64,000 nucleotides of DNA. Source: Candidatus Electrothrix aestuarii. GTDB taxonomy: Bacteria; Desulfobacterota; Desulfobulbia; Desulfobulbales; Desulfobulbaceae. The position numbers were made by a program, and so were the translations under genes. A model generated the notes under the pieces. It was not told the origin of the DNA and ran no database searches. It saw nothing but the letters and a program-made list of their open reading frames with translations. Of the stretch, positions 22,809-48,574 are shown one piece after another. Location of the stretch: contig CP159373.1 in NCBI GenBank assembly GCA_032595685.2, positions 3,437,907 through 3,501,906 of the forward strand, written 5' to 3'. Every line of letters starts with the position of its first letter. Within the stretch, counting starts at the first letter, position 1.

Positions 22809-24896
22809 TCATTGTGCCTGGAGTTGGTTAAGCCATTTTTTTGAATATTCCTGAAGAAGAGGATAATTTAAGGGCAAGAGAGGAGTATTTATTGATTTTT
22901 CCTCTAAAAGGGCAATAAACTCTGTCCAGGTTATTTTTGCAAGCAGCTGGGTGAGAGTTTCACTCGCTAGCTTTTCTTTCTTTGTGAGTAGGCTGGCTTC
23001 TATAAGGCATAGTAAGCTCGGCACGGTAGGTTCTCCAAGATCATGAGCAAGGTTGATATAGAAAAAAGATTTTTCAGCAAAGTCTGATGTTGCATATATA
23101 AGGGCAAGGGCAATTAGGGAATTTTTATATGGCTCGCTCGTCATGTTCGAGTTTGCAACGACTTGTTGTAACAGTGTTCTCCCTTCATCAACTCTGTTCA
23201 TGGCAATAAGCATTTCCCCATATTGCTGAAGATATTTTTCTTGCTTTGGATTCTCAAGGGTAAGCTGTTCCATGATATGTATGGCTTCATCTTTTTTCCC
23301 TGTCTTCCATAACACCTTTGCTTTAGAGGATTGAGGAGGTGCATTATATATCCCATATATTGTAGCCTTGGATTCCTCCAGAGCTGCATCGTAAAAATCT
23401 AATGCTTTTTTGTAATTTCCAATTTTCATCATGATATAGCCCAAATTATTATAGGCCCAAAACTTGGTTTTCCAGGGGGTTGCGCTATATTTGTTGAGTG
23501 AAAGATAGTTGAGTTCAAATGCCTTCTGGTAATTATGTTCTTGAAGTAGGTAATAGAGGCCGAGATTGATATAAGGCCCACTGTTGTTCGGGGCTTTTTT
23601 GACAGTATCTGCCCAGAGTGATCCTTCCGTGAGCCATACCCTGTTTCTTGTCAGCGTTCCAAAGACTAACAGAAGAACCAGTAAGATAGTTGAAGCTATC
23701 AAGGAAAAATAGATAAATTTATTCTGTTGTCGGTATCGTTGCATCAAGATTCCAGCTAAGGAAGCGATCGGAAGAAACAAAAAGAACGAAGGGAGGTAGT
23801 TGCGATGCTCAAATATAAGTTTAAGGTTCAGAAAAGTCGACTCAACTATATGGTTGAGAAGAAAGAAAAGAATAGCGAAAGAAAGTAGAGGATAACGTCT
23901 ATGAAAGAAAAAGGGAAGAATAGCGAGCAGTCCTATAGCAAGAACGGCAAAGGCAGTACTGAGCGGATGAAAGAGTGATGTCGATATTTGGATATCATGA
24001 ATGAGCGAGAGACGAGAGGGGGTCGGAAAAAAAAGGAGGCTGAGGTAAAAAAGAACAATTCGGGATTCCGTGAGCATTCGTTGGCCGGGGGTAAAACTGC
24101 GGGTAGCGTATGAAGCAAAAATCTTATGGAAGACGTCAGGCCCTTTGAGGAGAACGGTGAAGCCCAGGATGAAAAGGACACCGGATGCGAGCAGTATAAT
24201 ATTTTTTTTAGAGAGGCTGATGCGTTCTCTGAAAAAAAAGAACTCAATCAGTACAAGAGAAGCAGGAAGGAGGATGGCATTTTCTTTTGCCCCGAGCGCA
24301 AGGAGAAAGGTTATGAATGTGCCGAGATAATAGCCGAGTTGTTTTTTTAAATTATAGGGTAGCTGTAGCCGCGCCTTTAGATAGCACCATATTCCGATGA
24401 TGGAAAACATGGCAGCCAGGGATGCCATCCGTTGAACTATATAGGTGACAGCTTGCGTCTGGATAGGGTTAAGCGCCCAGAAAAGGGTGGCCAGCGAGGC
24501 TATAAGCAAAGGATTGCCGCTCACTTTTTCAAGCATTTTGGAAGTGGAAAGCAGCAACAGGCAGGATTGAAAGAGAAATATAGTGGTCAGTAAATGAATG
24601 AAAAAATTAACAAGATGATAGCCAAAGACTTTATCCTGATGGAAAAACCAATTTAAGGCAACGCTCAGGTTACTGACCGGACGAAGAAAGGTACCTTCTT
24701 GTTCTGGATAGGCAAAAAAAGTGCGTTTTATAGCTTGTGGCGTCAGCTCTGTCAGGTGGAGCGGGGTATTCTCCAAGATATTCGGGATATCATCAAAATG
24801 CCAATCCGCCTGAAAGGAGGGAATGTAGGCAATAAGCAGGAGTATGAAAAAAGAAAAATACAGTAAAAAATTTCCTCGGGTTTGATGGCTATTCAT
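22809..24896 (-). CDS. TMTC-like membrane protein with C-terminal TPR repeats (copy 1)
   Basis: 695 residues from the ATG at 24896 (a TTG 12 bases upstream is possible). The N-terminal 430 residues are a GT-C-like bundle of some ten membrane segments. Loop 1 reads WHFDDIPNILENTPLHL and TFLRPVSNLSVALNWFF, the D-D...RP...N pattern of eukaryotic TMTC O-mannosyltransferases. The C-terminal part has four or five TPR units (AYNNLGYIMMKIGNYKKALDFYD and similar). It overlaps the stop of the upstream paralogue by 8 bases. A glycosyltransferase role is inferred from the fold and the pilin context; acceptor and donor are unknown. Confidence 0.75.
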   Translation of the reverse strand: MNSHQTRGNFLLYFSFFILLLIAYIPSFQADWHFDDIPNILENTPLHLTELTPQAIKRTFFAYPEQEGTFLRPVSNLSVALNWFFHQDKVFGYHLVNFFIHLLTTIFLFQSCLLLLSTSKMLEKVSGNPLLIASLATLFWALNPIQTQAVTYIVQRMASLAAMFSIIGIWCYLKARLQLPYNLKKQLGYYLGTFITFLLALGAKENAILLPASLVLIEFFFFRERISLSKKNIILLASGVLFILGFTVLLKGPDVFHKIFASYATRSFTPGQRMLTESRIVLFYLSLLFFPTPSRLSLIHDIQISTSLFHPLSTAFAVLAIGLLAILPFFFHRRYPLLSFAILFFLLNHIVESTFLNLKLIFEHRNYLPSFFLFLPIASLAGILMQRYRQQNKFIYFSLIASTILLVLLLVFGTLTRNRVWLTEGSLWADTVKKAPNNSGPYINLGLYYLLQEHNYQKAFELNYLSLNKYSATPWKTKFWAYNNLGYIMMKIGNYKKALDFYDAALEESKATIYGIYNAPPQSSKAKVLWKTGKKDEAIHIMEQLTLENPKQEKYLQQYGEMLIAMNRVDEGRTLLQQVVANSNMTSEPYKNSLIALALIYATSDFAEKSFFYINLAHDLGEPTVPSLLCLIEASLLTKKEKLASETLTQLLAKITWTEFIALLEEKSINTPLLPLNYPLLQEYSKKWLNQLQAQ

Positions 24897-26955
24897 TTCT
24901 TTTTTCAATGAGATCAGTGAGCATCTGTGAAGTGGTTTTTAGGAGAGCTGGCCGGAGCAGATCTTTGTCAAGAGGGATTTGAAATGGATCTTTATTAGTT
25001 GTATTAAGAAAACCCCATAAATTGATAAGAGAAACTCTTCGAAGAAGTTTATTCAGCTGAGCCTCAGCCTTCTGATTATCACCGGCAAGAAGGCTGTTTT
25101 CAACCTGAAGTAACATTGCTGTCGAATTATTTTGCTGAACAGCTTTATTTAACTGAAATGAAGCGTTACTATAGTCCCCCTGCCGAGTCAATGCCTTTCC
25201 AATTCCCGCCGGAATAAGAGCGCTGTTCAGGTAAAAAGGTTCCGCCTGTCGGTAAGTGGTCAGAGCGTCAGTAGGTTTTCCCTGACGAAGAAAGACAGAT
25301 CCCTTAAGTAATAGCAAGCTGGGAGTCTTTGTCAGCGTATATCGTTCATTAATGATTTGTAATGCTTCATTATAGCGTTTTAGCTCGACGAGCACAGCTA
25401 TAAGTTTTTCAGCCGCTGCTGTGTAATCTTTACGGAAAGCATACGCCTGCTGAAAGTATTCAAGAGCTTTCTCGGGCTGGCCGAGCTCGTAGGTTATAAT
25501 ACCTTTTTGCATACGTGCGATGGGAATGATTGTATTTCGGGATGCGTCATTCGCTTCGTATTGCTCAGCTTTTTCACAGAGGATAAATGCGTCTTGAAAT
25601 TTTTTCTGGCCGGTATACCAGCTAGCTAGGTTGAGTTTTACACGTGCGCTTCTCGGGGCTTTTATAAGGGCATCTTCGTTTAATGTTCCTGTATTTTTCC
25701 ATGCCTTGTTGCGTTCTATCGTGGCATATCCTGATTGGAATAAAAAAAATATACAAATTATCCCTGCAATTAGTGCTGTCCATTTTTTTGTACTGATTAC
25801 CTTCTCTACGAAAGCAGCAAACGGTAGAAAGAGAAAGAGAGAAGGAAGAAGGTTTCTGTGTTCGAAAATGAGTTCTAAGGGAATGATCGTTGATTCCACA
25901 AGGTGGTTGAGGAAATAATATAAAATAGCAAAGGAAAGCAGAGGATTTTTATGAATGTTGATGGTACCGAGAAAAATTAATCCAATACAGACTGTAATAG
26001 CTGGTAAGGTCTGCCAAGGGGAAAAGAATGAGGTAGATAAGGTTATGTCATGGACAATTGAAAGTTTTGATGTTGTTGGGGAAAATATTTGGGAGAGATA
26101 GAAGAGCAGTATGCGCGGTTCTGTCAGAACGCGTTCAAGAAAGGTGAAGTTCCTATGTCCATAACTATTGGCTTGTTTAATAATGAAATCCCAACTGAGA
26201 AAAAGTATTCCACAGGAAATAGAGAAAAAAAGGAGAAGAAAAAGTTTTTTTTTCGCTTGTGCGAAGTTTTGAATTTTTGCGAATTGAAGAAAAAAAATCC
26301 CTTCAATAAGAGCCAGAGAGGGAAAGAGGAGGATGGTATTTTCCTTGCTGCCCAAGGCAAGTAGAGCGAAACAGAGGAGGGCGGTGAAAAAGATGATTTG
26401 ATGGATTCTGTTACTCGTCAACCTTGCGCGAAGGTAGAAAAAAATTGCACTAATAGAAAAAAAGGCGGCCAGCTGGGCCATGCGCTGAACTATGTACGTT
26501 ACAGCCGAGGTGTGAATAGGAGCCGATAACCAGAGCGCAGCTGCGAGCAGGGCTATGTTTTTTTTTTGTATGCGAGAGTATTTTTGTCTTTTGAGTGCCG
26601 GAGTATTGAGGATTTGGATGCAGCTCAGGTAGAGCATGATTGTTGTGAGGCAATGAATGAAAATATCGACAAGATGATAACCGATAGAGTTGTCTTTACC
26701 AAAAAACCAATTCAGGGCAAAGGTAAGGTTGGCTACTGGTCGATAAAATCTTCCTGTGGACTCGGGGTGGGCGTAAAAGGTGTTGGAAAGTGTAGCTGGC
26801 TGGAGGTTCGTTATGTGAAGCGGTGTGTTATAAAGAATGTTCCCGGAATCATCAAGATGCCAACCATTATGCAGAATACCACTATAAATAAGCAGAGTAA
26901 AAGAACAAAGAAGAGTTAGGTGAAAAAAGCATTTTTGTTCATTTGGTGACGACAT
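24889..26955 (-). CDS. TMTC-like membrane protein with C-terminal TPR repeats (copy 2)
   Basis: 688 residues from the ATG at 26955; a longer open frame upstream runs through the pilin 3' region and is not used. Same architecture as the neighbour: loop 1 with WHLDDSGNILYNTPLHI and RFYRPVANLTFALNWFFG, about ten membrane segments, then TPRs (ITYELGQPEKALEYFQQAY, LLKGSVFLRQGKPTDALTTY). The two genes are clear tandem paralogues but diverged, so the duplication is old and both are intact. Read-through from the pilin gene past the hairpin at 26965-26993 probably supplies transcription. Confidence 0.75.
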   Translation of the reverse strand: MSSPNEQKCFFHLTLLCSFTLLIYSGILHNGWHLDDSGNILYNTPLHITNLQPATLSNTFYAHPESTGRFYRPVANLTFALNWFFGKDNSIGYHLVDIFIHCLTTIMLYLSCIQILNTPALKRQKYSRIQKKNIALLAAALWLSAPIHTSAVTYIVQRMAQLAAFFSISAIFFYLRARLTSNRIHQIIFFTALLCFALLALGSKENTILLFPSLALIEGIFFLQFAKIQNFAQAKKKLFLLLFFSISCGILFLSWDFIIKQANSYGHRNFTFLERVLTEPRILLFYLSQIFSPTTSKLSIVHDITLSTSFFSPWQTLPAITVCIGLIFLGTINIHKNPLLSFAILYYFLNHLVESTIIPLELIFEHRNLLPSLFLFLPFAAFVEKVISTKKWTALIAGIICIFFLFQSGYATIERNKAWKNTGTLNEDALIKAPRSARVKLNLASWYTGQKKFQDAFILCEKAEQYEANDASRNTIIPIARMQKGIITYELGQPEKALEYFQQAYAFRKDYTAAAEKLIAVLVELKRYNEALQIINERYTLTKTPSLLLLKGSVFLRQGKPTDALTTYRQAEPFYLNSALIPAGIGKALTRQGDYSNASFQLNKAVQQNNSTAMLLQVENSLLAGDNQKAEAQLNKLLRRVSLINLWGFLNTTNKDPFQIPLDKDLLRPALLKTTSQMLTDLIEKRNE

Positions 26956-26960
26956 AATAC

Positions 26961-26993
26961 AAAACAAAGCCTGCTGATTAACAGCAGGCTTTG
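26961..26993 (-). terminator. Terminator/attenuator between pilin and TMTC-like genes
   Basis: CAAAGCCTGCTG (26965-26976) and CAGCAGGCTTTG (26982-26993) form a perfect 12-bp stem with a 5-base loop; on the minus strand it is followed by TTTTGT. It sits 22 bases after the pilin stop and immediately before the next start codon. That is the usual design for high pilin and low downstream expression. Confidence 0.85.
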
Positions 26994-27014
26994 ATGTCTC
27001 TGGTAAAAAACGTA

Positions 27015-27596
27015 TTACAGAGTCTTGAAAAAGGCGACTGGATTGTCGCCATCTGTTCTCTGCGTTGCAGTAATCGCGCCTGGATCGGCTGCGGTAGGCA
27101 GTGTAATCGTGGCGTCTGATGGTTCGAACCAATGTTTATCAGACGTGGTTATTTTCATCGGACAATTTCCTGCACCTTCTATAGCGTAAAGCAGATAATT
27201 AGGGCCAGCCTTCAATGCACCAGCTGCTTGAGTAGGAGTGCCCTCACCTGCTCGTGTGGAAGTTGACAGGAGGAGCGTGTTCGCTGGGGAGGGGGGCTCA
27301 GTAGTATGATAGTTAGTGTTGCCAATAAAAATTTCCGGACGACCACCAGGTTGTTCTGGTGCTTTATAGAAAGTTGATGCTGTTGTGTTGGCAGGATTGG
27401 CAAAGTAATCCGCCAACGCACCACCGAGTGCGTTTACATCATTGATTGTTGCGGTACAATAGGATTTGTTCTTGTACTCAATGAAGTTAGGGATAGCAAC
27501 AGCTGCCAAGATACCAATAATCGCGATAACGATCATCAGCTCGATCAAGGTAAAACCTTTCTCGTTTGCTTGTTTTCTCAAGTTATTCAGTTTCAT
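27015..27596 (-). CDS. pilA: Type IV pilin (PilA-like)
   Basis: The start at 27596 has GGAGG six bases upstream. The 193-residue prepilin has a class III leader ending NEKG, followed by [20 protein letters not shown], with Phe+1 and Glu+5 as in type IVa pilins. The mature globular part is Thr/Pro/Ala-rich with two cysteines (YCTATIND and NCPMKITT) that could form the C-terminal disulphide loop. The Ser/Thr-rich middle ([24 protein letters not shown]) offers many O-glycosylation sites. Cut by a PilD-type peptidase, not in the window. Encoded just upstream of two TMTC-like genes. Confidence 0.9.
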
Positions 27597-38840: not shown

Positions 38841-40849
38841 GGTTTTTTTTTCAATATATCATGTACTGCCTTCCCCAGCTGTGACAAGGAGTAGGGTTTC
38901 TGGATGAACTCACTCTCCCCCATCTCAAGCGCTGCCTTTGCATCATCACACTCATTATAGCCACTTGCTATAAGAGCCTTCTGGTCAGGATAGAGCTTGA
39001 GGATTTCCCCGTAGACCTGTCTTCCGCTGACGCCGGGCTCCAAGGCTATATCAAGCATGACTAAATCAACAGCAGTCTCTTTGATAAACTGGAGAGCCTG
39101 TTTCCCAGAGCAGGCTGTATCTACTGTGTAGCCCAGGGATTCAAGCATGCTGCGTGTAACATCGAGGGTTTGTTCTTCTTTGTCCACCAAGAGAATACGT
39201 TTGCCAGGATTGGTGCATGTATCGAGTAATTGTAATTCATCGTTCTCAATGCAAATAGAGGCCGCATGTGCTGCCACTGGAAAATAGAGGAGAAAACAAG
39301 TGCCCTGTTCATTGCTCTCCACTTGAATCTGTCCTTCATGGTCTCGCATAGTATTCCAGGCAATGGTCAAGCCGAGCCCGGTGCCGCTTCGTCCCATGAC
39401 TTTCTTGGTGTAGAATGGTTCAAAAACATGTTCCAGTTCATTTGCTGGGATGCCTGGTCCGTTATCTTGCACGCTGAGCACAAGATACTCTCCCTTTTTC
39501 ATATGATCAGAGCTTGTTGTTGACTCAATAAATTGATTCTGGGAGGAGATTGTAATAGAGCCGTCTGTATCCGAACCTATAGCCTCTGCCGCATTAATCA
39601 CCAGATTCATCAGACATTTCCACACATGAATTGAGGAACAAAGAACGGTCTGGTGTTTGGCCTCCAGCTGTTGCTGAAACTTGATATTGGGATACAAGGC
39701 CTTGAGTCGCTCACAGTCAGGGGAAGAGAGGTATTCTCTGATGAGCAGATTAAGATTATAGGGCTCCCGGATAGTGCTGGCTCCTCGGGCGACAACAAGA
39801 AGGTCGGCAACAACTTTTGCTGCTTTACGGCCTGACTCACGGATAGCCTCAACCCATTTTATCATTGGGCTATCAGTAGGGAGCTTCATCAAGAGTAATT
39901 CAGGGTACCCTACAATTCCCACGAGAATATTATTGAGATCATGGGCCACGCTACCGGCCATCATCCCTAAGGCCTCCATCTTTTTTGCTTTAAGAAGTTC
40001 GGCTGCAGTCTTCTCCTTTTCCTGCTCCGCTTGAATTCGCTCTGTAATATCTCTGAACATCAGGAGCTTCCAGTGAGCACCCTCTGGACCCTCCATTGGT
40101 GTTTCTATGATATCATAGGTCTTGTTGATCAGTTCCGAGTACCATTCCCAATGTATTGTCTCCCCGGCAAAGACTTGATCATTCTTACACCAGGGACATG
40201 GCTCCGATCTCCTATGAAAATATTCATAACACTTACTCTCCTGCCAGGGACCGAAATCTGCTGCAAGCGCCTTGTTAACAAAATGAATATCATGCTGCTC
40301 GCAGACAATGTAGCAACCGTCCTTCATCGCTTTGAGGAGGTTGACGAAGTTATCCCGCTCCAGCCGTAACTCTTCGGTTCGTTCGGCAACCCGTTGTTCT
40401 AACATCGTATTGGCACGGGAGAGGGCAGCTTCAGTATTTTTTTGCTGGGTGATATCGCGCCATATGCTGATAATCGCGGTGTCCTCTCGTTCTTCGTCAT
40501 CCTCTAACTGGCGGGAAGAGGCGTTCACACTGAAAAACTTGGGACCTGTGCTGGTCATCAGCTCGAACCCAACATTGCTACAAGTCCCGGTACGAGAGAT
40601 TTCCTTCTGTAAAGAGGTCCACGTGCTCAGAGGATCTCCCACAAAGGCACTCAACCAGTCAAAGAGGCTGGTTTCAACGAGTTCACCAGGGGAGCAGGAA
40701 AAAAGAGAACAGAAACTTTGATTAGCCACCAGAATAGTAGCGGCCTCGTCAGTGATGACAACGCAATCCTGCGAGGCGGCAAGTACCGCCTCAAAGAATT
40801 TAACCGTTTTTTGGAGCGTTTTAACGTTCTGCTGCTGCGATGCTCTCAT
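38837..40849 (-). CDS. Hybrid sensor histidine kinase (PAS-PAS-HK-REC)
   Basis: 670 residues, no signal peptide or membrane segment. Two PAS domains (about 15-145 and 180-280; the first with VITDEAATILVANQSF, the second with three Cys, CEQHDIHFVNKALA...CPWC) are joined by a coiled coil. The HisKA box is MAGSVAHDLNNILVGIVGYP, and HATPase motifs are LMNLVINAAEAI, VQDNGPGIP and GRSGTGLGLTIAW. A C-terminal receiver domain carries the phospho-acceptor Asp in DLVMLDIALEPG. A cytosolic sensor; a Cys-rich PAS may sense redox. The gene overlaps the NasA-like gene by 29 bases. Confidence 0.92.
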   Translation of the reverse strand: MRASQQQNVKTLQKTVKFFEAVLAASQDCVVITDEAATILVANQSFCSLFSCSPGELVETSLFDWLSAFVGDPLSTWTSLQKEISRTGTCSNVGFELMTSTGPKFFSVNASSRQLEDDEEREDTAIISIWRDITQQKNTEAALSRANTMLEQRVAERTEELRLERDNFVNLLKAMKDGCYIVCEQHDIHFVNKALAADFGPWQESKCYEYFHRRSEPCPWCKNDQVFAGETIHWEWYSELINKTYDIIETPMEGPEGAHWKLLMFRDITERIQAEQEKEKTAAELLKAKKMEALGMMAGSVAHDLNNILVGIVGYPELLLMKLPTDSPMIKWVEAIRESGRKAAKVVADLLVVARGASTIREPYNLNLLIREYLSSPDCERLKALYPNIKFQQQLEAKHQTVLCSSIHVWKCLMNLVINAAEAIGSDTDGSITISSQNQFIESTTSSDHMKKGEYLVLSVQDNGPGIPANELEHVFEPFYTKKVMGRSGTGLGLTIAWNTMRDHEGQIQVESNEQGTCFLLYFPVAAHAASICIENDELQLLDTCTNPGKRILLVDKEEQTLDVTRSMLESLGYTVDTACSGKQALQFIKETAVDLVMLDIALEPGVSGRQVYGEILKLYPDQKALIASGYNECDDAKAALEMGESEFIQKPYSLSQLGKAVHDILKKKP

Positions 40850-42953
40850 AATCCTCTTGTACTTTTGCCATACGCACGGCAGTTATTTTGTACTCAGGTT
40901 GTTTGGAATGACGATCAATAGCATGGGTGCAGAGAATATTGGCCAGGCGATTATCCGGCTCCTGGAGGGCATTACCGAAATGCATGTTCATGTACACGGT
41001 CCCTGCCAGTATTCTGTCAGCAACCCGTACCTTAGCAAGGACCCGGCCGCGCCGGGAGGCCACTTCGACCACATCATTTTCCTCCATGCTGAGTGTCTCA
41101 GCATCTTGAGGATGGATTTCAACGTAGTTCTCCGGTTCCTGGCGGCGTAGTTCCTCTACTCGCCCGGTGCGGGTTCTGGTATTGAAATGACCTGCCAACT
41201 TTCCTGTCACAAGGATAAAGGGATACTCGCTATCAGTTGACTCTGCGCCTTCCTGGTATTCCCGTCCTAAGAGGGCGGCTCGTCCATCGGCCCTGGGAAA
41301 ACGCCAGTCAAGGAAAAGACGTTCTGTTCCGGGATGGTCCTTTTCCGGACAGGGAAGCTGTGGCCCGATAGCGTCTTCCAGCCTTTCATAAGTCACCCCG
41401 TTCATATCGCAAATCCGACCTCTTGTCAGTATTTTCCATTCTTCAAAAATCTCTTTCGGTGATGAATAGGAAAACTCATCTTCAAATCCCATTGCTCGGG
41501 CCACATCAATGATGATGTCACAATCTGTTTTTGCTTCACCTGGAGGATCTACCAGTTTTTTGACTAATTCAATGCGTCGTTCTGAGGAGATGAAGGTCCC
41601 TGTTTTTTCACACCACTGGGCTCCTGCCAGCACTACATCAGCAAGTTGGGTTGTTTCAGTGGGATGGAATATATCCTGAACAATAAGTAGCTCAGCTTTC
41701 TTCAGGCCTTCCTCTACCCAATGGGTATCTGGTAAAGAGGCCGCAGGGTTGGTTGTTGTTACCCACAAAGCCTTAACTGAGCCCTCGTGTAGGCCCTGAA
41801 TAATTTCAATAATAGAACGACCTGGTGTAGATTGGAGATTTTCCACAGGAATATTCCAAAAATCTGCAACCTCCTGGCGTTGACTGGGATTAGCAACTAA
41901 GCGCATTCCCGGCAGGAGATGACTGAGTGCCCCAACCCAGCGATTCCCCAAGGCATTAGCTTCACCGGTAATGGAAAGGGGGCCTGCTCCAGGGCGACAG
42001 AAATTGCCGGTCAGGAGCGAGAGATTATGCAGGCTGTTGTTTTTAAAGACCGCTTGGGTGGAATGATTATACCCTTGGAACCAGAAGGTGAGCATATTTT
42101 TGCAAGACCCGATAAGGCGGGCAGCTGCAATGATCTGTTCTGCTGGACAGCCGGTTATCTCGGCACCGTAGCTGGGCGTATATTTTTCCAAAAAGATCTT
42201 CAGTTCATCAAGACCGGAGGTGCGAATGTCCACACTTTCCTCATCAACAAATCCTTCCTTGAGAAGAGTATGGGCCAAGGTGTTATTCAGGGCTACATCA
42301 GTGCCTGGTTTAATCTGGAGATGAATATCCGCGATGGCTGCTGTTTCTGTTCGGCGAGGATCAACGACTATAACCTTGGCGCCCTTTTCGGCAGCTTTTT
42401 TCAGGCGCAGGAAAATGATGGGGAGGGTGATCGCCATATTATTGCCAGCAACGTAGAAGAGGTCTGCCTGTTCTATGTCTGCATAGCATGTAGGGGGGGC
42501 ATCGGCCCCTAAGGTGGAAAGAAAGCCAGCAGCAGAGCTGGCCATGCAGAGGCGCGTCGAGCATTCGATGTTATTGGTGCCGATGCAGCCCTTCATCAGC
42601 TTATTCATCAAATAATATTCTTCGGTCAGGTTCGCGGCGCCACCGTAGAAAGCCACAGCATTAGGACCGTGCTCTTCAATAATTCGGTTCAAATCGCCAG
42701 CGACAGAACTCACCGCCTCGTCCCAGCTGACTGGAACGAGTTGCCCGTTGCGGCGCAGGAGAGGTTGGGTGAGTCGACCCGGTGCATTAAACACAGGTGG
42801 TAAATGAGCAGCCAAGGCACATATGCGGCCCTTATTAATTGGGTGCTCCTCCATGCCCTGTACCTTTACAATACGTCCCTGCTCCACCCCAACCTGTAGG
42901 CCGCAGCCGACGCCACAATAAGGGCAGGTAGACTTATGCCACTGGATTGCCAT
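40821..42953 (-). CDS. Molybdopterin oxidoreductase, NasA/NarB-like catalytic subunit
   Basis: 710 residues. An N-terminal [4Fe-4S] motif CPYCGVGCGLQ...KGRICA, then the bis-MGD fold. The Mo-ligand region is ECSTRLCMASSAAGFLSTLG, with Cys in the position and context of assimilatory nitrate reductases. Formate dehydrogenases usually have (U/C)H at this place. The C-terminal MGD domain includes TGKLAGHFNTRTRTGR and VYMNMHFGNALQEPDNRLAN. No Tat signal, so cytoplasmic. No electron-transfer subunit or nitrite reductase is adjacent. The overlap with a sensor kinase gene is unusual for a metabolic enzyme. Assimilatory nitrate reductase is favoured; a formate-dehydrogenase-like enzyme remains possible. 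Confidence 0.8.
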   Translation of the reverse strand: MAIQWHKSTCPYCGVGCGLQVGVEQGRIVKVQGMEEHPINKGRICALAAHLPPVFNAPGRLTQPLLRRNGQLVPVSWDEAVSSVAGDLNRIIEEHGPNAVAFYGGAANLTEEYYLMNKLMKGCIGTNNIECSTRLCMASSAAGFLSTLGADAPPTCYADIEQADLFYVAGNNMAITLPIIFLRLKKAAEKGAKVIVVDPRRTETAAIADIHLQIKPGTDVALNNTLAHTLLKEGFVDEESVDIRTSGLDELKIFLEKYTPSYGAEITGCPAEQIIAAARLIGSCKNMLTFWFQGYNHSTQAVFKNNSLHNLSLLTGNFCRPGAGPLSITGEANALGNRWVGALSHLLPGMRLVANPSQRQEVADFWNIPVENLQSTPGRSIIEIIQGLHEGSVKALWVTTTNPAASLPDTHWVEEGLKKAELLIVQDIFHPTETTQLADVVLAGAQWCEKTGTFISSERRIELVKKLVDPPGEAKTDCDIIIDVARAMGFEDEFSYSSPKEIFEEWKILTRGRICDMNGVTYERLEDAIGPQLPCPEKDHPGTERLFLDWRFPRADGRAALLGREYQEGAESTDSEYPFILVTGKLAGHFNTRTRTGRVEELRRQEPENYVEIHPQDAETLSMEENDVVEVASRRGRVLAKVRVADRILAGTVYMNMHFGNALQEPDNRLANILCTHAIDRHSKQPEYKITAVRMAKVQEDYESIAAAER

Positions 42954-43099: not shown

Positions 43100-45262
43100 T
43101 TATTTTTGATAGAGTCGTGTGACGGCCTGCCAGTTTTCCGGGACGCCGAATTCTATATTCTCCTGACACCTATCATAGTACAACTGCGCTGCTTTATCGT
43201 TTGGGTTATCACGGAGAATTCCCTGCATTATTTGCCGTGTTCTGTGAAAGTGCTTATCCCGATAGAGAAAGACTCCTTTTTCGAAATGTTTTTTGCAGTC
43301 TCTCTTTTTTTGCATTGTTTCGCTCTCATCGCCTTCCAATACTTCAAAAACGCTGACAGGTTGGGATTTTCCTTTGACTGCAACCAGATCCAGTTCTCTG
43401 ATGCGATATTTTAAAGGCTTTTCCAGCCGATAAAAGGTGTGCCCGCTGATTACTAGCGAGGCCCCGTACAGCTTTGCAAGACCCTCCAGGCGGGAAGCCA
43501 GGTTAACGGCATCGCTGATAACAGTCCCGTCCATGCGTCCGTATTCACCAATTATTCCCAGCATCAGATGACCAGTGTTGATTCCGACCCGAATTTTTAT
43601 CGGAGCAGTATAGTATTTTGCTTTTTTTCGTTTCTCGTTATAGGCTGTAACGGCATTGAGGAGGCCAATCCCGGCAGCAATGGCATCATCCGGGCTCTTA
43701 TCAAAGAGCGCCATAATGGCGTCGCCAATATATTTATCTATGAATCCGTTATTGTTTCTAATAATAGGGCCGATGGCATTGAGGATGGAGTTAACAAAGG
43801 TGAAGTTCTGTTTCGGACTCATGCGTTCCGAGATAGTTGTGAAATCAGCAATGTCTGCGAAAAGAACAGACATGTTTTTTTCCACATGATCGCCCAGTTG
43901 CACCTCGATAATGGATTCTTTTTGCAGGTAATTGAGAAAGTCGTTGGGCACAAAGCGTGCATAAGCACTGTTGATCTCCTGGAGGTTAGCCAATTGGTCC
44001 AGGATTTTCTCTCCCATTCGTTCAAGAAGGCGGGTGAAATTGGCAAATTCAGCAAAGAAGATTTTTCCTTTAAAGGATGAGTAGTCGCCAGCCGCATATT
44101 GGTTGACGATCTTTTTCATGTCTTTTAAGGGAGAAACAATGAAATTAGCTGTAAAATAAGCCAATACAAGGATAACAAGTAAGGAAATCAGAACGAGAAC
44201 GATCAGTGTAATCATGGTCTCGTTGACCTCTGTAAAGCGTACAGCTGAGGGCTCGGAAAGTACAAGACGGTACTCTACTGCCAGCGTATCTTGGTTAGTG
44301 TAAGAGAGCCCTAAGGGTGCCGGGGTGCTTGAGATTAGCTCATCCTGAGAATCCTGAACAGAAGGAAAGTTGGTTTTCTTGTTACACAGAGAAGTACCAT
44401 CCTTGAGTTGCAAGTCAAAAACTCTCTTGCTGTCGGGGTTGATTCTGGAATAGATTTTTGTAATGAGATACTCAACCGGCACTATTGCAATAACAGCACC
44501 CAGGGTTGTTATGGGACTGTTAACATGTTCTTTTGTCGCGAGCGGAACAATAATCGCAATGCCGTGTCCTGTCCTACATAGGCTATTTGAGGAATATGCG
44601 ACTTTGCTTGCCGGGCCTGTTTCGCCTTTTGCTCGCTCATCATCGCTGATTCTTTTGATGATTTTTGTAAAGAAGTCTTTTCTGCATTCGTCATAACCCT
44701 CGTCGCAATCTTTCTTTTGATTGTCATCGCAAAAGTCAGAGACGATATACTGCGACTGCATCTTTTCAGAATCTTTCTGGAAAAATTGTTCCAGGGATTG
44801 CATAACAGCAGAGGGTAGCTTAATATCTGCTACGCAGTCCGGCACGACTTCCTCCATAGAAGGGCTTTTGCTGTCCAGCAGGAAGGTATCTTTTTTGATA
44901 AAATATGTAGCAGCAACCAGATCGTTACCTGTATTGAAATTGCCCATATCCTCGGCAGCATCTCCACCGAATAACTCGCTATAACCTGCTAAGGCCATAT
45001 CACCTGTTCTTCCGAGAATACGGAGTCGGGAAGCTGTGCCATTCAACTGGTTCGTCAGGTCAAGGGCTATACTCTCTGCCTGCTGGTTGAGTTCCTTAAC
45101 TGCCCCCTCCCTTGTTATTTGATAAATTTTTTTGGCAAGCAGGGAAGAGAAGAGAAGAGCGGGTACCCCGGCCGCAACCAAAATAATTATGGTCAGAGTG
45201 AAAGGGAAATTTCTGAAGATGGAAAACCAGGATTTTTTCATCGGCGTCTTGCTATCAATCAT
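43100..45262 (-). CDS. Class III adenylate cyclase with periplasmic sensor and HAMP-like linker
   Basis: About 720 residues. A membrane segment near the N-terminus, a periplasmic sensor of about 290 residues containing Cys-rich pieces (DFCDDNQKKDCDEGYDECRK), a second membrane segment (MITLIVLVLISLLVILVLAYF), and a HAMP-type linker. The cyclase domain has metal Asp in LFADIADFTTISE and GFIDKYIGDAIMALF, adenine-selecting Lys (DKYIGD) and Asp (TVISDAVNLASRLEGL), and the Asn/Arg transition-state pair. A short helical tail follows. It should make cAMP in response to an outside signal. Its start lies inside the end of the solute-binding-protein gene (8-base overlap). Confidence 0.9.
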   Translation of the reverse strand: MIDSKTPMKKSWFSIFRNFPFTLTIIILVAAGVPALLFSSLLAKKIYQITREGAVKELNQQAESIALDLTNQLNGTASRLRILGRTGDMALAGYSELFGGDAAEDMGNFNTGNDLVAATYFIKKDTFLLDSKSPSMEEVVPDCVADIKLPSAVMQSLEQFFQKDSEKMQSQYIVSDFCDDNQKKDCDEGYDECRKDFFTKIIKRISDDERAKGETGPASKVAYSSNSLCRTGHGIAIIVPLATKEHVNSPITTLGAVIAIVPVEYLITKIYSRINPDSKRVFDLQLKDGTSLCNKKTNFPSVQDSQDELISSTPAPLGLSYTNQDTLAVEYRLVLSEPSAVRFTEVNETMITLIVLVLISLLVILVLAYFTANFIVSPLKDMKKIVNQYAAGDYSSFKGKIFFAEFANFTRLLERMGEKILDQLANLQEINSAYARFVPNDFLNYLQKESIIEVQLGDHVEKNMSVLFADIADFTTISERMSPKQNFTFVNSILNAIGPIIRNNNGFIDKYIGDAIMALFDKSPDDAIAAGIGLLNAVTAYNEKRKKAKYYTAPIKIRVGINTGHLMLGIIGEYGRMDGTVISDAVNLASRLEGLAKLYGASLVISGHTFYRLEKPLKYRIRELDLVAVKGKSQPVSVFEVLEGDESETMQKKRDCKKHFEKGVFLYRDKHFHRTRQIMQGILRDNPNDKAAQLYYDRCQENIEFGVPENWQAVTRLYQK

Positions 45263-46442
45263 GAGATTCCGCAACTTTTTGCATCAGGGCCGATGCTTGT
45301 TTGGCATCAAGACTTCCTGCGAGGAAGCGATAAAATCCTTTACGGATTCCCTCCCAAGCATAACTCATGCTGGGTTCGCTGGGCATTGCCCTGGCAATCT
45401 CAAGCTGTCTCAGAAATTGCCGTTGATTGGGATCAGCCTGCTGCTTGAAATCATTTAACACTTTTTTATGCACAGGAAGGCGTTTCAGTGCTGTATACCA
45501 GCGTCGTTGAATCGGTTCACTTTGCATGGTCATGGTAAACTGTTCCAGGATTTTTCTCTTTGGACCTTGCAATGCTTTTCCAGGAAAGACCAGTGCATGT
45601 GTCGAATACATCGGAGTCACAGGTTTCGTTCCGATTGATGGGATTACTGCAACGCCGAAGTCTTGGCCCAGCTCCTTTTCTGTTTGCAGATAAGCCCAGT
45701 CACCGTTCAGGGCATAGGCAAAATCTCCCTTAAAAAAACGTTTTGTACCGCAATTGCTGTTACAGTCCCGAGGAATAAGCCCTTTATCGGCAAGAGATTT
45801 GTAGAACGTAAGAGCATCTTGCATCGCCTTGGTATTCAGGGTAATTTCCCCTCCTTCCATTGGCCAGCCCCCAAATGGTCCCATAAAACCGACAAACCAG
45901 TAGACATCATTATAACTCCAACCTATAGGTTTTACGCCTTGCTGTTCCAATGCTGCTTTTTGGGCATAAAGCTCGGCCCAAGTTGTCGCAGGTGTTTTGA
46001 CTTTTTTTTTATTATAATACATCATAATATGGTTGCCCCCGAGTATAGGTGCCCCATATATTTTTCCGCCAATTCGCACTGTTCCATAGGCATTCTCTCC
46101 TATATCAGGGTTGTTAAGAGACGCCGGGACCTCTGATAAGTTGATTAAGGAAAAAAGTCCGACAAAATCGGAGGGAACAAGTGCTATTTCGGGCATTCGA
46201 CCACGTAAGGCCCTCTTGATAAGGGCTTGTTTGAGGTGATTTACAGGGATATATTCAGCTTTTATTTGCACCCCGTGTTTTTTGCTGAATTCGGCACATA
46301 TATCGCGTATAAATTCTTTTGCTGTTGCTTCCTTATGCCAGAGATAGATTTTTTTTTCATCTGAATGAGCTGCCGAGGCAAAGAAAAAGAAGAGCGCAAT
46401 ACATATGCCTTTTATTATATATTTACTCGACATATTCTTCAT
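45255..46442 (-). CDS. Periplasmic extracellular solute-binding protein (family 1, sugar type)
   Basis: About 395 residues from 46442 (a second ATG nine bases later is equally good). Signal peptide IIKGICIALFFFFASAAHS, then a maltose-binding-protein-like fold: KKIYLWHKEATAKEFIRDIC, IALVPSDFVGLFSLI, GKIYGAPILGGNHIMMYYNKK, ALNGDWAYLQTEKELG and STHALVFPGKALQGPKRK. There are no ABC permease or ATPase genes next to it. Its stop overlaps the start of the adenylate cyclase, so it probably presents a ligand to the cyclase sensor rather than to a transporter. Confidence 0.85.
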   Translation of the reverse strand: MKNMSSKYIIKGICIALFFFFASAAHSDEKKIYLWHKEATAKEFIRDICAEFSKKHGVQIKAEYIPVNHLKQALIKRALRGRMPEIALVPSDFVGLFSLINLSEVPASLNNPDIGENAYGTVRIGGKIYGAPILGGNHIMMYYNKKKVKTPATTWAELYAQKAALEQQGVKPIGWSYNDVYWFVGFMGPFGGWPMEGGEITLNTKAMQDALTFYKSLADKGLIPRDCNSNCGTKRFFKGDFAYALNGDWAYLQTEKELGQDFGVAVIPSIGTKPVTPMYSTHALVFPGKALQGPKRKILEQFTMTMQSEPIQRRWYTALKRLPVHKKVLNDFKQQADPNQRQFLRQLEIARAMPSEPSMSYAWEGIRKGFYRFLAGSLDAKQASALMQKVAESHD

Positions 46443-46668
46443 AGAGTGTAACGGGCCTGTTGCATTCACTGTATATGCTCGAAGAAGGATGGCTCACGGA
46501 ATATTCTGAAAAAATTTAACACGTCGGAAAAAAGATGGGATGTATTCCGTATCTGTTCAACTTCACCGCTAGGTGGTCATTATTTTTTGTCGGTCTATCG
46601 AAGTGAGGCTTAAACAGAATATTTGAGTGGATATAATAACCCTATCTAGGAAAAATAAGGAGGAAAAA

Positions 46669-48507
46669 ATGATTGAGTTGGCACAGGTCGGAGCCCATGT
46701 TGGGCTAACCGGTCGGAATAGTCTGCAACTCGGGCTGTATCTTCCAGGGATTAGCACAGATAAACACTATAGCCTTTATGCGGATATAATCCATAGTGCT
46801 GATCAGTTCTCTCCTGATATTGAAGCTGTTTCTGTTGAGCTAACAGAAAGGGATCGCCAAACTGGTCTCTGGCAGTTTCAGGGGGATATAAATGCATTAC
46901 CCCAGATTGGTAGTCTAGGACAACCTGGGCGATATTTGTATCGTTATCGATTGCATCGGGACGGACAAGAGCTGATTTATTCTTTTGCCGATCCCTATGC
47001 TGTGCTGAGTGGAAGCGGAACAAATTCGGCCTTTGATTTTCAGGTACAGGATGATTTTCAGTGGACAGACAGTGCGTTTTCTGTTCCTGATATCAGTGAA
47101 TTAATTATCTACGAAATGATGGTAGATGATTTTGCCAATACTTTTGAGGGAGTGCTGGAAAAACTCATTTATTTGGAGTCCCTGGGGGTAAACTGTATCG
47201 AATTGATGCCGGTAACCAATATTCCAGAGCCGTACCGCTGGGGCTATATGCCGATGAGTTATTTTGCCATAGAAGAACGTTATGGTGATGCCAATATGCT
47301 GAAAAGGCTGGTCAATGCCTGTCACGAGCGCGGCATTGCGGTGATTCATGATGCCGTCTATGCCCATATGCACGATGAGTTTTGCTATCATAAGGTATAT
47401 AGAATAACAGAGGAAGAAAATCCTATGATAGGACCTTTTGCCGCTGATGTGTTCGGAATAGGGACTGATTTTACCAAGGAATTCACCTTTGATTATTTCA
47501 CGGCAGTTAATAGGTATTTCTTAGACGAGCTGCATTTTGATGGTTTTCGTTACGACTATGTACCGGGCATTTATGACGGCCCTCTCGGGAAAGGCTACTC
47601 CCGGCTTGTTTATGAAACATATCAATACAGTAAGGATATTCCGCGCTTTCGTGGAGGAACGCATACGCGTATTATTCAGGTTGCTGAACATCTGGATATG
47701 CCGAAAAAAATTATGCAAGAGACCTACACCACGGCCAGCAAGAGATGGAATCCTATGCTGAAGGCGCAGGATATGTTAAGGGATTACGGCTCAGTACCAG
47801 AAGAATTTATTGATGAGATATTGCTCATTGATGTATCAGACCCCTGGCCCAGAGAGTATCGTAATGAAAAAGATGGTGATGTCTTTCCGGTCGCGCCCTT
47901 ACAGTTTTTGGAAAGCCATGATAGGAGTCGTCTTATGTATATTGCCAGTGAGGCAGAACCCTTAAGTGATGGCGGCTTTGACCTGTTCGGACGGGATAGA
48001 AGGAATTGGCATCGCCTTCAGCCCTTCGCTATTGCCTTGATGACAGCAGAAGGGGTCCCTCTTCTTTGGCAGGGGCAGGAATTTGGGGAAATCTACGGGA
48101 AAGATGATATTGGTGGCTCACGGGTTTTGGCAGCCCGTCCTTTGCACTGGAATTTTTTTTATGAGCGAGAAGGGCGTGCCCTGGTGAATCTTTACAGGCG
48201 ACTCGGCAAGTTGCGACACCAATATTCAGCTTTGCGGAGCCGCGATTCCATCTTTTATAGGCAATACTCAAAGTTGGACCAGGGTCTCGTTGCCTATCTT
48301 CGCTTGCCAGCACAACAAAACGAAACTTCGGTATTGGTTTTGATTAATTTCAGTGACGAGGACGGAACGTTACGTGTTCCATTTTCCTCAGGCCGTTGGC
48401 AGGAACAGCTGATGTCGGATAAGGAGATGTTTGAGGTTGATCACAGTGGTGATTATGAAGTTCATCTGCCTTCTAATTACGGGAAAATATTTGTTCGAAT
48501 AGATTGA
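46669..48507 (+). CDS. Glycoside hydrolase family 13 (alpha-amylase superfamily) enzyme
   Basis: The start at 46669 has GGAGG six bases upstream and gives 612 residues. An N-terminal beta domain (CBM48-like, about 1-130) is followed by a (beta/alpha)8 barrel: LGVNCIELMPVTNI, GIAVIHDAVYAH, the nucleophile region FDGFRYDYVPG, the acid/base Glu in IIQVAEHLDMP and the third acid in FLESHDRSRL. A C-terminal beta domain completes it. The layout resembles malto-oligosyltrehalose trehalohydrolase or branching enzymes more than simple amylases. No signal peptide, so it acts inside the cell, probably on glycogen-type glucans. Transcribed away from the solute-binding protein gene. Confidence 0.85.
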   Translation: MIELAQVGAHVGLTGRNSLQLGLYLPGISTDKHYSLYADIIHSADQFSPDIEAVSVELTERDRQTGLWQFQGDINALPQIGSLGQPGRYLYRYRLHRDGQELIYSFADPYAVLSGSGTNSAFDFQVQDDFQWTDSAFSVPDISELIIYEMMVDDFANTFEGVLEKLIYLESLGVNCIELMPVTNIPEPYRWGYMPMSYFAIEERYGDANMLKRLVNACHERGIAVIHDAVYAHMHDEFCYHKVYRITEEENPMIGPFAADVFGIGTDFTKEFTFDYFTAVNRYFLDELHFDGFRYDYVPGIYDGPLGKGYSRLVYETYQYSKDIPRFRGGTHTRIIQVAEHLDMPKKIMQETYTTASKRWNPMLKAQDMLRDYGSVPEEFIDEILLIDVSDPWPREYRNEKDGDVFPVAPLQFLESHDRSRLMYIASEAEPLSDGGFDLFGRDRRNWHRLQPFAIALMTAEGVPLLWQGQEFGEIYGKDDIGGSRVLAARPLHWNFFYEREGRALVNLYRRLGKLRHQYSALRSRDSIFYRQYSKLDQGLVAYLRLPAQQNETSVLVLINFSDEDGTLRVPFSSGRWQEQLMSDKEMFEVDHSGDYEVHLPSNYGKIFVRID

Positions 48508-48548
48508 AATGAGGTTGGGGGAGAGGGAAGTACACGTGATAATTTTGT

Positions 48549-48574
48549 AACCGGAGAAGGTGTTTCTCCGGTTT
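48549..48574. terminator. Bidirectional terminator between GH13 and the orange-protein-type operon
   Basis: AACCGGAGAA (48549-48558), loop GGTGT, TTCTCCGGTT (48564-48573): a perfect 10-bp stem flanked by T-rich sequence on both strands, between two convergent genes. Confidence 0.8.

Follow-up and report, generated by a model that had tools for sequence, protein, structure and literature searches.

We analyzed a pair of overlapping genes in a stretch of 64,000 nucleotides (the window) from the cable bacterium Candidatus Electrothrix aestuarii (contig CP159373.1, positions 3,437,907 to 3,501,906), the genome of which is a single contig of 5,110,699 bp. One gene encodes a MalE-like solute-binding protein (SBP) and the other a transmembrane class III nucleotide cyclase. 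From sequence comparison we conclude, with a probability of about 0.7, that the two genes encode one SBP-receptor unit with a nucleotide cyclase output. A preliminary description of this DNA had proposed that the SBP is dedicated to the cyclase. This is the best-supported reading, given that a sister species keeps the pair, that related sensors are recurrently paired with SBPs, and that other SBP-cyclase pairs occur; the exclusiveness of the partnership is less secure, because an ABC importer of the CUT1 type encoded elsewhere in the genome might share the SBP.

The features of the pair are as follows.

45255-46442, minus strand: MalE-like SBP, 395 amino acids from the likely ATG; the open reading frame (ORF) opens at GTG 46469
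46365-46442, minus strand: predicted Sec signal sequence of the SBP, MKNMSSKYIIKGICIALFFFFASAAH, read from the sequence by eye
45255-45262, minus strand: overlap of the cyclase start and the SBP stop, 8 nt, ATGATTGA
43100-45262, minus strand: transmembrane class III nucleotide cyclase, 720 amino acids; alternative starts TTG 45274 and ATG 45241
45134-45208, minus strand: first transmembrane segment, residues about 19-43, from hydropathy
44228-45133, minus strand: periplasmic sensor, about 300 residues, dCache-like as judged from its relatives
44135-44227, minus strand: second transmembrane segment (TM2), residues about 346-376, from hydropathy
43883-44134, minus strand: HAMP-like linker and signaling helix, residues about 377-460, with weak similarity to linker regions of receptors in NCBIfam
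43340-43882, minus strand: class III catalytic domain, with metal Asp 470/514, base-selecting Lys510/Thr580, and Asn587/Arg591

The SBP and the cyclase

The SBP stop codon (45255-45257) lies inside the cyclase reading frame, which starts at the ATG 45260-45262. This 8-nt overlap and the domain matches given below bear out the earlier account of an SBP stop overlapping the start of a transmembrane class III cyclase, and because their genes overlap, the two proteins probably form one receptor. The SBP had also been described as having no transporter genes beside it. The window indeed contained no match to the ABC permease domain BPD_transp_1, all 19 matches in the genome lying outside it.

The SBP matched the Pfam families SBP_bac_8 (1.2e-23) and SBP_bac_1, as well as solved MalE-type chains (6ffl, E 1.8e-27). 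Among the NCBIfam models it was nearest to MalE, with a score of 101 bits that is far below the cut-off of 291 bits. Its N-terminus reads as a Sec-type signal sequence that lacks a lipobox (a reading of the sequence, not the output of a predictor), which predicts export to the periplasm. Ligand contacts were compared in the alignment with MalE-type chains, using 12 residues that we take to be the maltose contacts and what we take to be the numbering of maltose-binding protein. D65, Y155, W230, W340, and R344 were kept and E153 was replaced by D; the other six (D14, K15, W62, R66, E111, and Y341) were altered. Because five of the 12 presumed contacts are identical and one is conservative, a carbohydrate ligand is plausible and maltose is doubtful. 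Maltose itself, which the wording of the preliminary description might suggest, is not supported, since half of the contacts are changed; judged from the SBP family, the ligand would most likely be a carbohydrate.

In the cyclase, Pfam matched Guanylate_cyc (PF00211) only (residues 462-635, 1e-19, 71.3 bits against a cut-off of 21.9). CyaB of Pseudomonas aeruginosa (3r5g) matched at 5.7e-25, with agreement at the catalytic positions. D470, D514, K510, T580, N587, and R591 were all intact; we take the two Asp residues to bind metal, K510 and T580 to select the base, and the last two to be the conserved Asn/Arg pair. The product is presumably cyclic AMP (cAMP). Hydropathy placed a periplasmic domain between two transmembrane helices, at residues about 19-43 and about 346-378. 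Pfam, including dCache_1, found no domain in this sensor, and no HAMP match was obtained in the window cyclase, although several of its relatives do match HAMP. In a sensor homologue from genome G075, dCache_1 scored 28 bits against a cut-off of 45. With hhalign, a dCache-like kinase was matched at 95.6% over 200 columns, part of which belong to TM2 and HAMP.

If the two proteins act together, the SBP would be exported to the periplasm and bind a small solute. The closed, ligand-loaded SBP would then dock on the periplasmic domain of a dimeric cyclase, and the signal would pass through TM2 and the HAMP-like helix and alter cAMP synthesis, the direction of the effect being conjectural. Downstream targets of cAMP may be sought among the 14 matches to cyclic nucleotide-binding domains in the host genome, which are possible cAMP readers.

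Some related sensors are paired with SBPs

A search with the sensor at E 0.001 gave matches in 19 of 290 genomes, most of them covering only the TM2 and linker part. We accept only G000, G007, and G075 as matches over its full length, the last in two pieces (32% and 36%). A match in Aliikangiella (L093), obtained in a search of genome contigs, was discarded as a sensor relative because it was confined to the transmembrane and HAMP parts.

The best sensor homologue outside the genus (L060, in G075) comes from another family of the order and has a SpoIIE phosphatase output. In this region (L060:6354-10198) a DctP-type SBP gene is followed after 160 nt by the SpoIIE receptor gene and then by a DUF6272 gene, and no TRAP permease was recognized among the listed ORFs around it. 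We take the arrangement to resemble a SiaA/SiaB-type system, here with an SBP of its own. This SiaA-like receptor has a homologous sensor and a neighboring SBP without a recognized transporter, as in the window pair, and differs from it in its SpoIIE output with a DUF6272 gene and in the DctP type of its SBP.

Receptors reached by similarity to the sensor or HAMP part had an adjacent SBP gene on the same strand at 13 of 51 places. The 51 comprise 47 that were listed and four already known (G007, G075, G023, and G154); two were unparsed and several lie near contig ends. Twelve of the 13 pairs were found by script, and the one in G023 by eye and Pfam, the script having taken frames of the wrong strand at that place. 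Their SBPs belong to eight Pfam families: Peripla_BP_6 (three), PBP_like_2, NMT1, and SBP_bac_3 (two each), and DctP, ABC_sub_bind, Phosphonate-bd, and SBP_bac_8 (one each, the last in G007, assigned by 96% identity to the window SBP). A PstS gene on the opposite strand beside the L139 receptor was left out of the count. The output was a histidine kinase in eight of the 13, SpoIIE in two (L060 and L175), and a class III cyclase in two (G007, assigned by its identity with the window, and L165); the L172 frame is cut by a contig end and gave no Pfam match. Related sensors thus recur beside SBPs for which no transporter was recognized nearby.

SBP-cyclase pairs in other lineages

A survey for the gene pair in other genomes, as the preliminary description had suggested, yielded the same pair in the sister genome G007 and pairs with other SBP families in G562, Azospirillum, and Bradyrhizobium. 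In G562, which belongs to the same phylum but another family, an NMT1 SBP gene precedes the gene for a PDC/dCache-HAMP-Guanylate_cyc receptor (L165); taking M22 as its start gives an overlap of 11 nt. Two HAMP-cyclase genes lie near each other there (L165:2-6361), the SBP gene standing with the second only. Because the L165 cyclase has E and S in place of K and T at its base-selecting positions, its product may differ from cAMP.

The plasmid pairs were reached by tblastn of the L165 cyclase on plasmids, for which the gene table is incomplete. An SBP adjoined the cyclase in 5 of 20 plasmid regions, representing two lineages (four Azospirillum records and one Bradyrhizobium record); two of these five regions were picked after the first Azospirillum matches. 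In Azospirillum a dCache-HAMP cyclase gene is followed after 15 nt by a DctP SBP gene, and DctQM is not annotated beside it. This was so in all four records inspected with that cyclase (for example, NZ_CP012916.1, 795402-798599), which offer a cultivable model; Azospirillum brasilense strain Sp 7 is among the carriers, whereas in 2024 cable bacteria were called unculturable (PMC10926707). Another Azospirillum record, the fifth, encodes a different cyclase and had no adjacent SBP. On the Bradyrhizobium japonicum plasmid pS11L-1, the gene for a dCache cyclase overlaps that for a UrtA-like SBP (Peripla_BP_5/6) by 4 nt, and urtBCDE were not recognized in the ORFs that follow the pair. Five of the 20 plasmid regions are unannotated in the stretch concerned and were checked only by a seed-based script (19 SBP seeds); the one SBP-like frame found by it, about 2 kb from the cyclase match, was left uncounted.

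The pair in the genus and a probable exchange of the sensor

The pair is kept in the same-genus sister genome G007 (5,089,909 bp), and the frames overlap in both species. A search with the SBP at E 1e-10 gave matches in 3 of 145 genomes: the host genome, G007 (96%), and G041. The G041 protein is an ordinary MalE within a MalEFGK operon and was ruled out as a second pair; a search of genome contigs with the SBP gave no relative. Genomes G003 and G006 keep the FdhA and kinase genes that follow the pair, without an SBP, cyclase, or GH13 gene at that place.

Comparison with G007 suggests that the window cyclase is a chimera with an exchanged sensor. Over residues 371-720 the two proteins are 100% identical, with 98.3% DNA identity and a synonymous divergence (dS) of 0.084. 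Over residues 1-370 the protein identity is 75% and the DNA identity 78.7%, with a dS of 0.77 and a nonsynonymous divergence (dN) of 0.149. For six neighboring genes dS ranged from 0.06 to 0.29. The diverged segment is given below.

44151-45206, minus strand: tract diverged between the sister species, with differences at 229 of 1053 sites; elsewhere in the SBP and cyclase genes, 71 of 2287 sites differ

Because dS is high in the sensor tract, recombination with a diverged allele is preferred to selection as its cause, and the pattern points to replacement of the sensor half by recombination with the output half unchanged. Co-evolution of SBP and sensor was set aside as the source of the tract, since dS is raised too and recombination explains it. 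The 3' half of the SBP gene is also more diverged from G007 (46 of 564 sites, 8%, vs. 7 of 672 in the other half); because parts of FdhA reach the same level, this was not read as co-evolution of an interface. Another mosaic tract lies around the 3' end of the GH13 gene (48251-48550 of the window), where DNA identity to the sister drops to 75-85%.

Among the matches listed, the two best relatives of the catalytic part were paralogues in the same genome (53%, 247.7 bits, and 52%, 230.7 bits). The next, in another genome, scored 228.8 bits at 48%, and a shorter alignment in G612 reached 53%.

Contrary evidence and alternative explanations

Several results weigh against a single receptor unit. 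The pair is present in only two of the eight genomes of the genus. The linker and catalytic part, searched in a sample of 395 genomes of the phylum, matched at least 147 places outside its own genome, of which 60 were taken for receptor size (20 with a match reaching the linker and 40 with long frames). The 59 parsed cyclase loci, 54 of them with an upstream neighbor in view, had no SBP-like neighbor; this check was repeated with two more SBP seeds, the seeds covering some SBP families only. The 1.5-kb flanks of the nine best-scoring short cyclase loci (frames of 383-557 amino acids) contained no SBP-like frame. A Pfam scan of 63 same-strand neighbors within 300 nt gave FecR, alanine racemase, and others (25 of 70 families listed). 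Because these 68 loci found by catalytic similarity lack an SBP-like neighbor, the SBP-cyclase pairing is rare. The own genome holds six other cyclases, of which five were parsed and had no SBP-like neighbor; the sixth (L113), judged from the ORF list, had none beside it. In 15 of the 20 plasmid regions no SBP was seen beside the cyclase. AlphaFold2 models, made from three sequences each, were of low confidence (predicted local distance difference test scores of 38 for the sensor and 40 for the SBP). Since relatives of the sensor are repeatedly paired and loci found by catalytic similarity are not, SBP pairing follows the sensor rather than the cyclase domain.

The rarity of the pair, in the genus and among the 68 loci, is what would be expected if the SBP and cyclase genes were chance neighbors with no functional link. 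We regard this as very improbable, because overlapping frames are kept in two species, like arrangements with other SBP families occur in other lineages, and the expected chance count of SBP genes immediately upstream of a cyclase gene on the same strand is about 0.004 by our arithmetic. The estimate used 5 SBP_bac_8 matches, 7 class III cyclase matches, and about 4,400 genes, the last being the figure for the sister genome in the part of PMC10926707 consulted.

The host genome also contains an importer that the SBP could serve. Three SBP stretches (L057, L058, and L059) were inspected among the permease and SBP matches. The genome has five SBP_bac_8 matches, one of which is the SBP of this pair; two flank a PotBC-like set at L057 (named by gene order and sequence reading), and one lies at L059, about 1.3 Mb away, within a complete CUT1 set with UgpA/UgpE/UgpC-like parts, a further point against a dedicated SBP. 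A separate SBP-receptor pair, which speaks for the receptor reading, was seen at L058:6743-9868 (at about 138 kb in the same genome), where an SBP_bac_8 gene stands directly 5' of a HAMP histidine kinase gene, followed by response-regulator and PAS-kinase genes. Some importers take several SBPs, and with its CUT1 permease pair and UgpC/MalK-type ATPase the L059 importer could be the one served, the window SBP merely sharing a transcript with a cyclase that responds to another signal. This is unlikely: the importer already comes with an SBP, to which the window SBP is only about 15% identical. Moreover, the gene overlapped by that of the window SBP encodes a receptor and not a permease, and receptors with related sensors or linkers have the same layout with other SBP families. 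The preliminary description had taken a co-regulated ABC permease elsewhere as evidence that would tell against it; half of this is present, in that an importer exists, with its own SBP and at a great distance.

Domains of the dCache type commonly bind ligands directly. The sensor might therefore recognize a small ligand of its own, with the SBP modulating or scavenging that ligand instead of carrying the signal, and an amino acid-specific dCache family is mentioned in the part of PMC9602780 consulted. The repeated pairing of such receptors with unrelated SBP families would be hard to explain in this way, and we consider it slightly less probable than service to the CUT1 importer.

Neighboring genes

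Two further features lie next to the SBP gene.

46443-46668, no strand assigned: divergent intergenic region between the SBP and GH13 genes; no CRP-like matches inside
46669-48507, plus strand: divergent GH13-type enzyme, 612 amino acids; no signal sequence seen

The divergent GH13 gene was confirmed, with its likely start moved to 46669, which is preceded by AAGGAGG, rather than 46627. Near-copies were found in two genomes (G000 and G007), and G003 holds a 37% relative on a separate contig. The proposal that the enzyme is a target of cAMP found no support and was set aside: its only ties to the pair are its location and the fact that the same two genomes contain both, and CRP-like sites in the window were no commoner than chance (19 found vs. 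26 expected). Between 42900 and 46800, promoter-like sites were fewer than in shuffled sequences (4 vs. 7.4); terminator-like sites numbered 6 vs. 4.5 in shuffles.

Elsewhere in the window, two TPR proteins (699 and 747 amino acids) are encoded on the minus strand at 22809-27132, with frames overlapping by 20 nt. In FdhA paralogues of the host genome (4156241-4158253) and of relatives, the frame continues through a single in-frame TGA, where selenocysteine is likely, unlike the FdhA of the window (40821-42953).

Significance and comparison with known systems

To our knowledge, few natural ligands are known for bacterial receptor-type class III cyclases. Should the ligand be brought to the cyclase by a separate SBP, each pair would offer a direct handle: the ligand of the SBP first, then the cAMP output. 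Nucleotide cyclases would also join the receptor types controlled by SBPs, and cable bacteria would provide a concrete lead on the sensing of external solutes through cAMP. With less confidence than for the window pair, we lean toward the view that SBP-linked receptor cyclases form a recurrent receptor class that still lacks a name. On this view, a class III cyclase would have been joined in several lineages to a periplasmic dCache-type sensor that depends on a separate SBP, each with a different SBP family (MalE-like, NMT1, DctP, or UrtA-like), the sensor half being exchangeable by recombination and the cyclase half fixed.

The SBP shares with MalE its sequence family and part of the presumed sugar contacts. 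It differs from MalE in having no adjoining MalFGK, in scoring under the MalE model cut-off, and in the six changed contacts. The cyclase shares its catalytic domain and catalytic residues with CyaB of P. aeruginosa and other class III cyclases and differs from CyaB in its sensor and in its partner gene.

No bacterial SBP-cyclase precedent was recognized in the literature searched, mostly from titles and the starts of abstracts, and the word "cyclase" was absent from the cable-bacteria papers listed. SBP-activated receptors named in the part of the paper by Ortega et al. (2022; PMC9602780) consulted are chemoreceptors, sensor kinases, cyclic di-GMP enzymes, and Ser/Thr kinases; adenylate cyclases are named there only as receptors, not as SBP-activated. 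The earlier remark that this design is little described for cyclases agrees with that list and with the literature searched. As in the SBP-stimulated receptors of that source, the window pair combines a predicted exported SBP with an adjoining two-transmembrane receptor that has a periplasmic domain, and no transporter is linked to them; its output, a class III nucleotide cyclase, is outside the list. Fused Venus-flytrap cyclases, namely, the natriuretic peptide receptor guanylate cyclase of animals and the receptor adenylate cyclases of trypanosomes, are described in the part of PMC6027212 consulted. In these, a class III cyclase is believed to be governed by an extracellular fold of the binding-protein type, as proposed here. 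Their binding domain is fused to the cyclase, whereas in the window pair it would be a separate periplasmic protein acting on a cyclase with its own sensor, so that the pair, if correctly interpreted, would be a split bacterial counterpart of the fused receptors.

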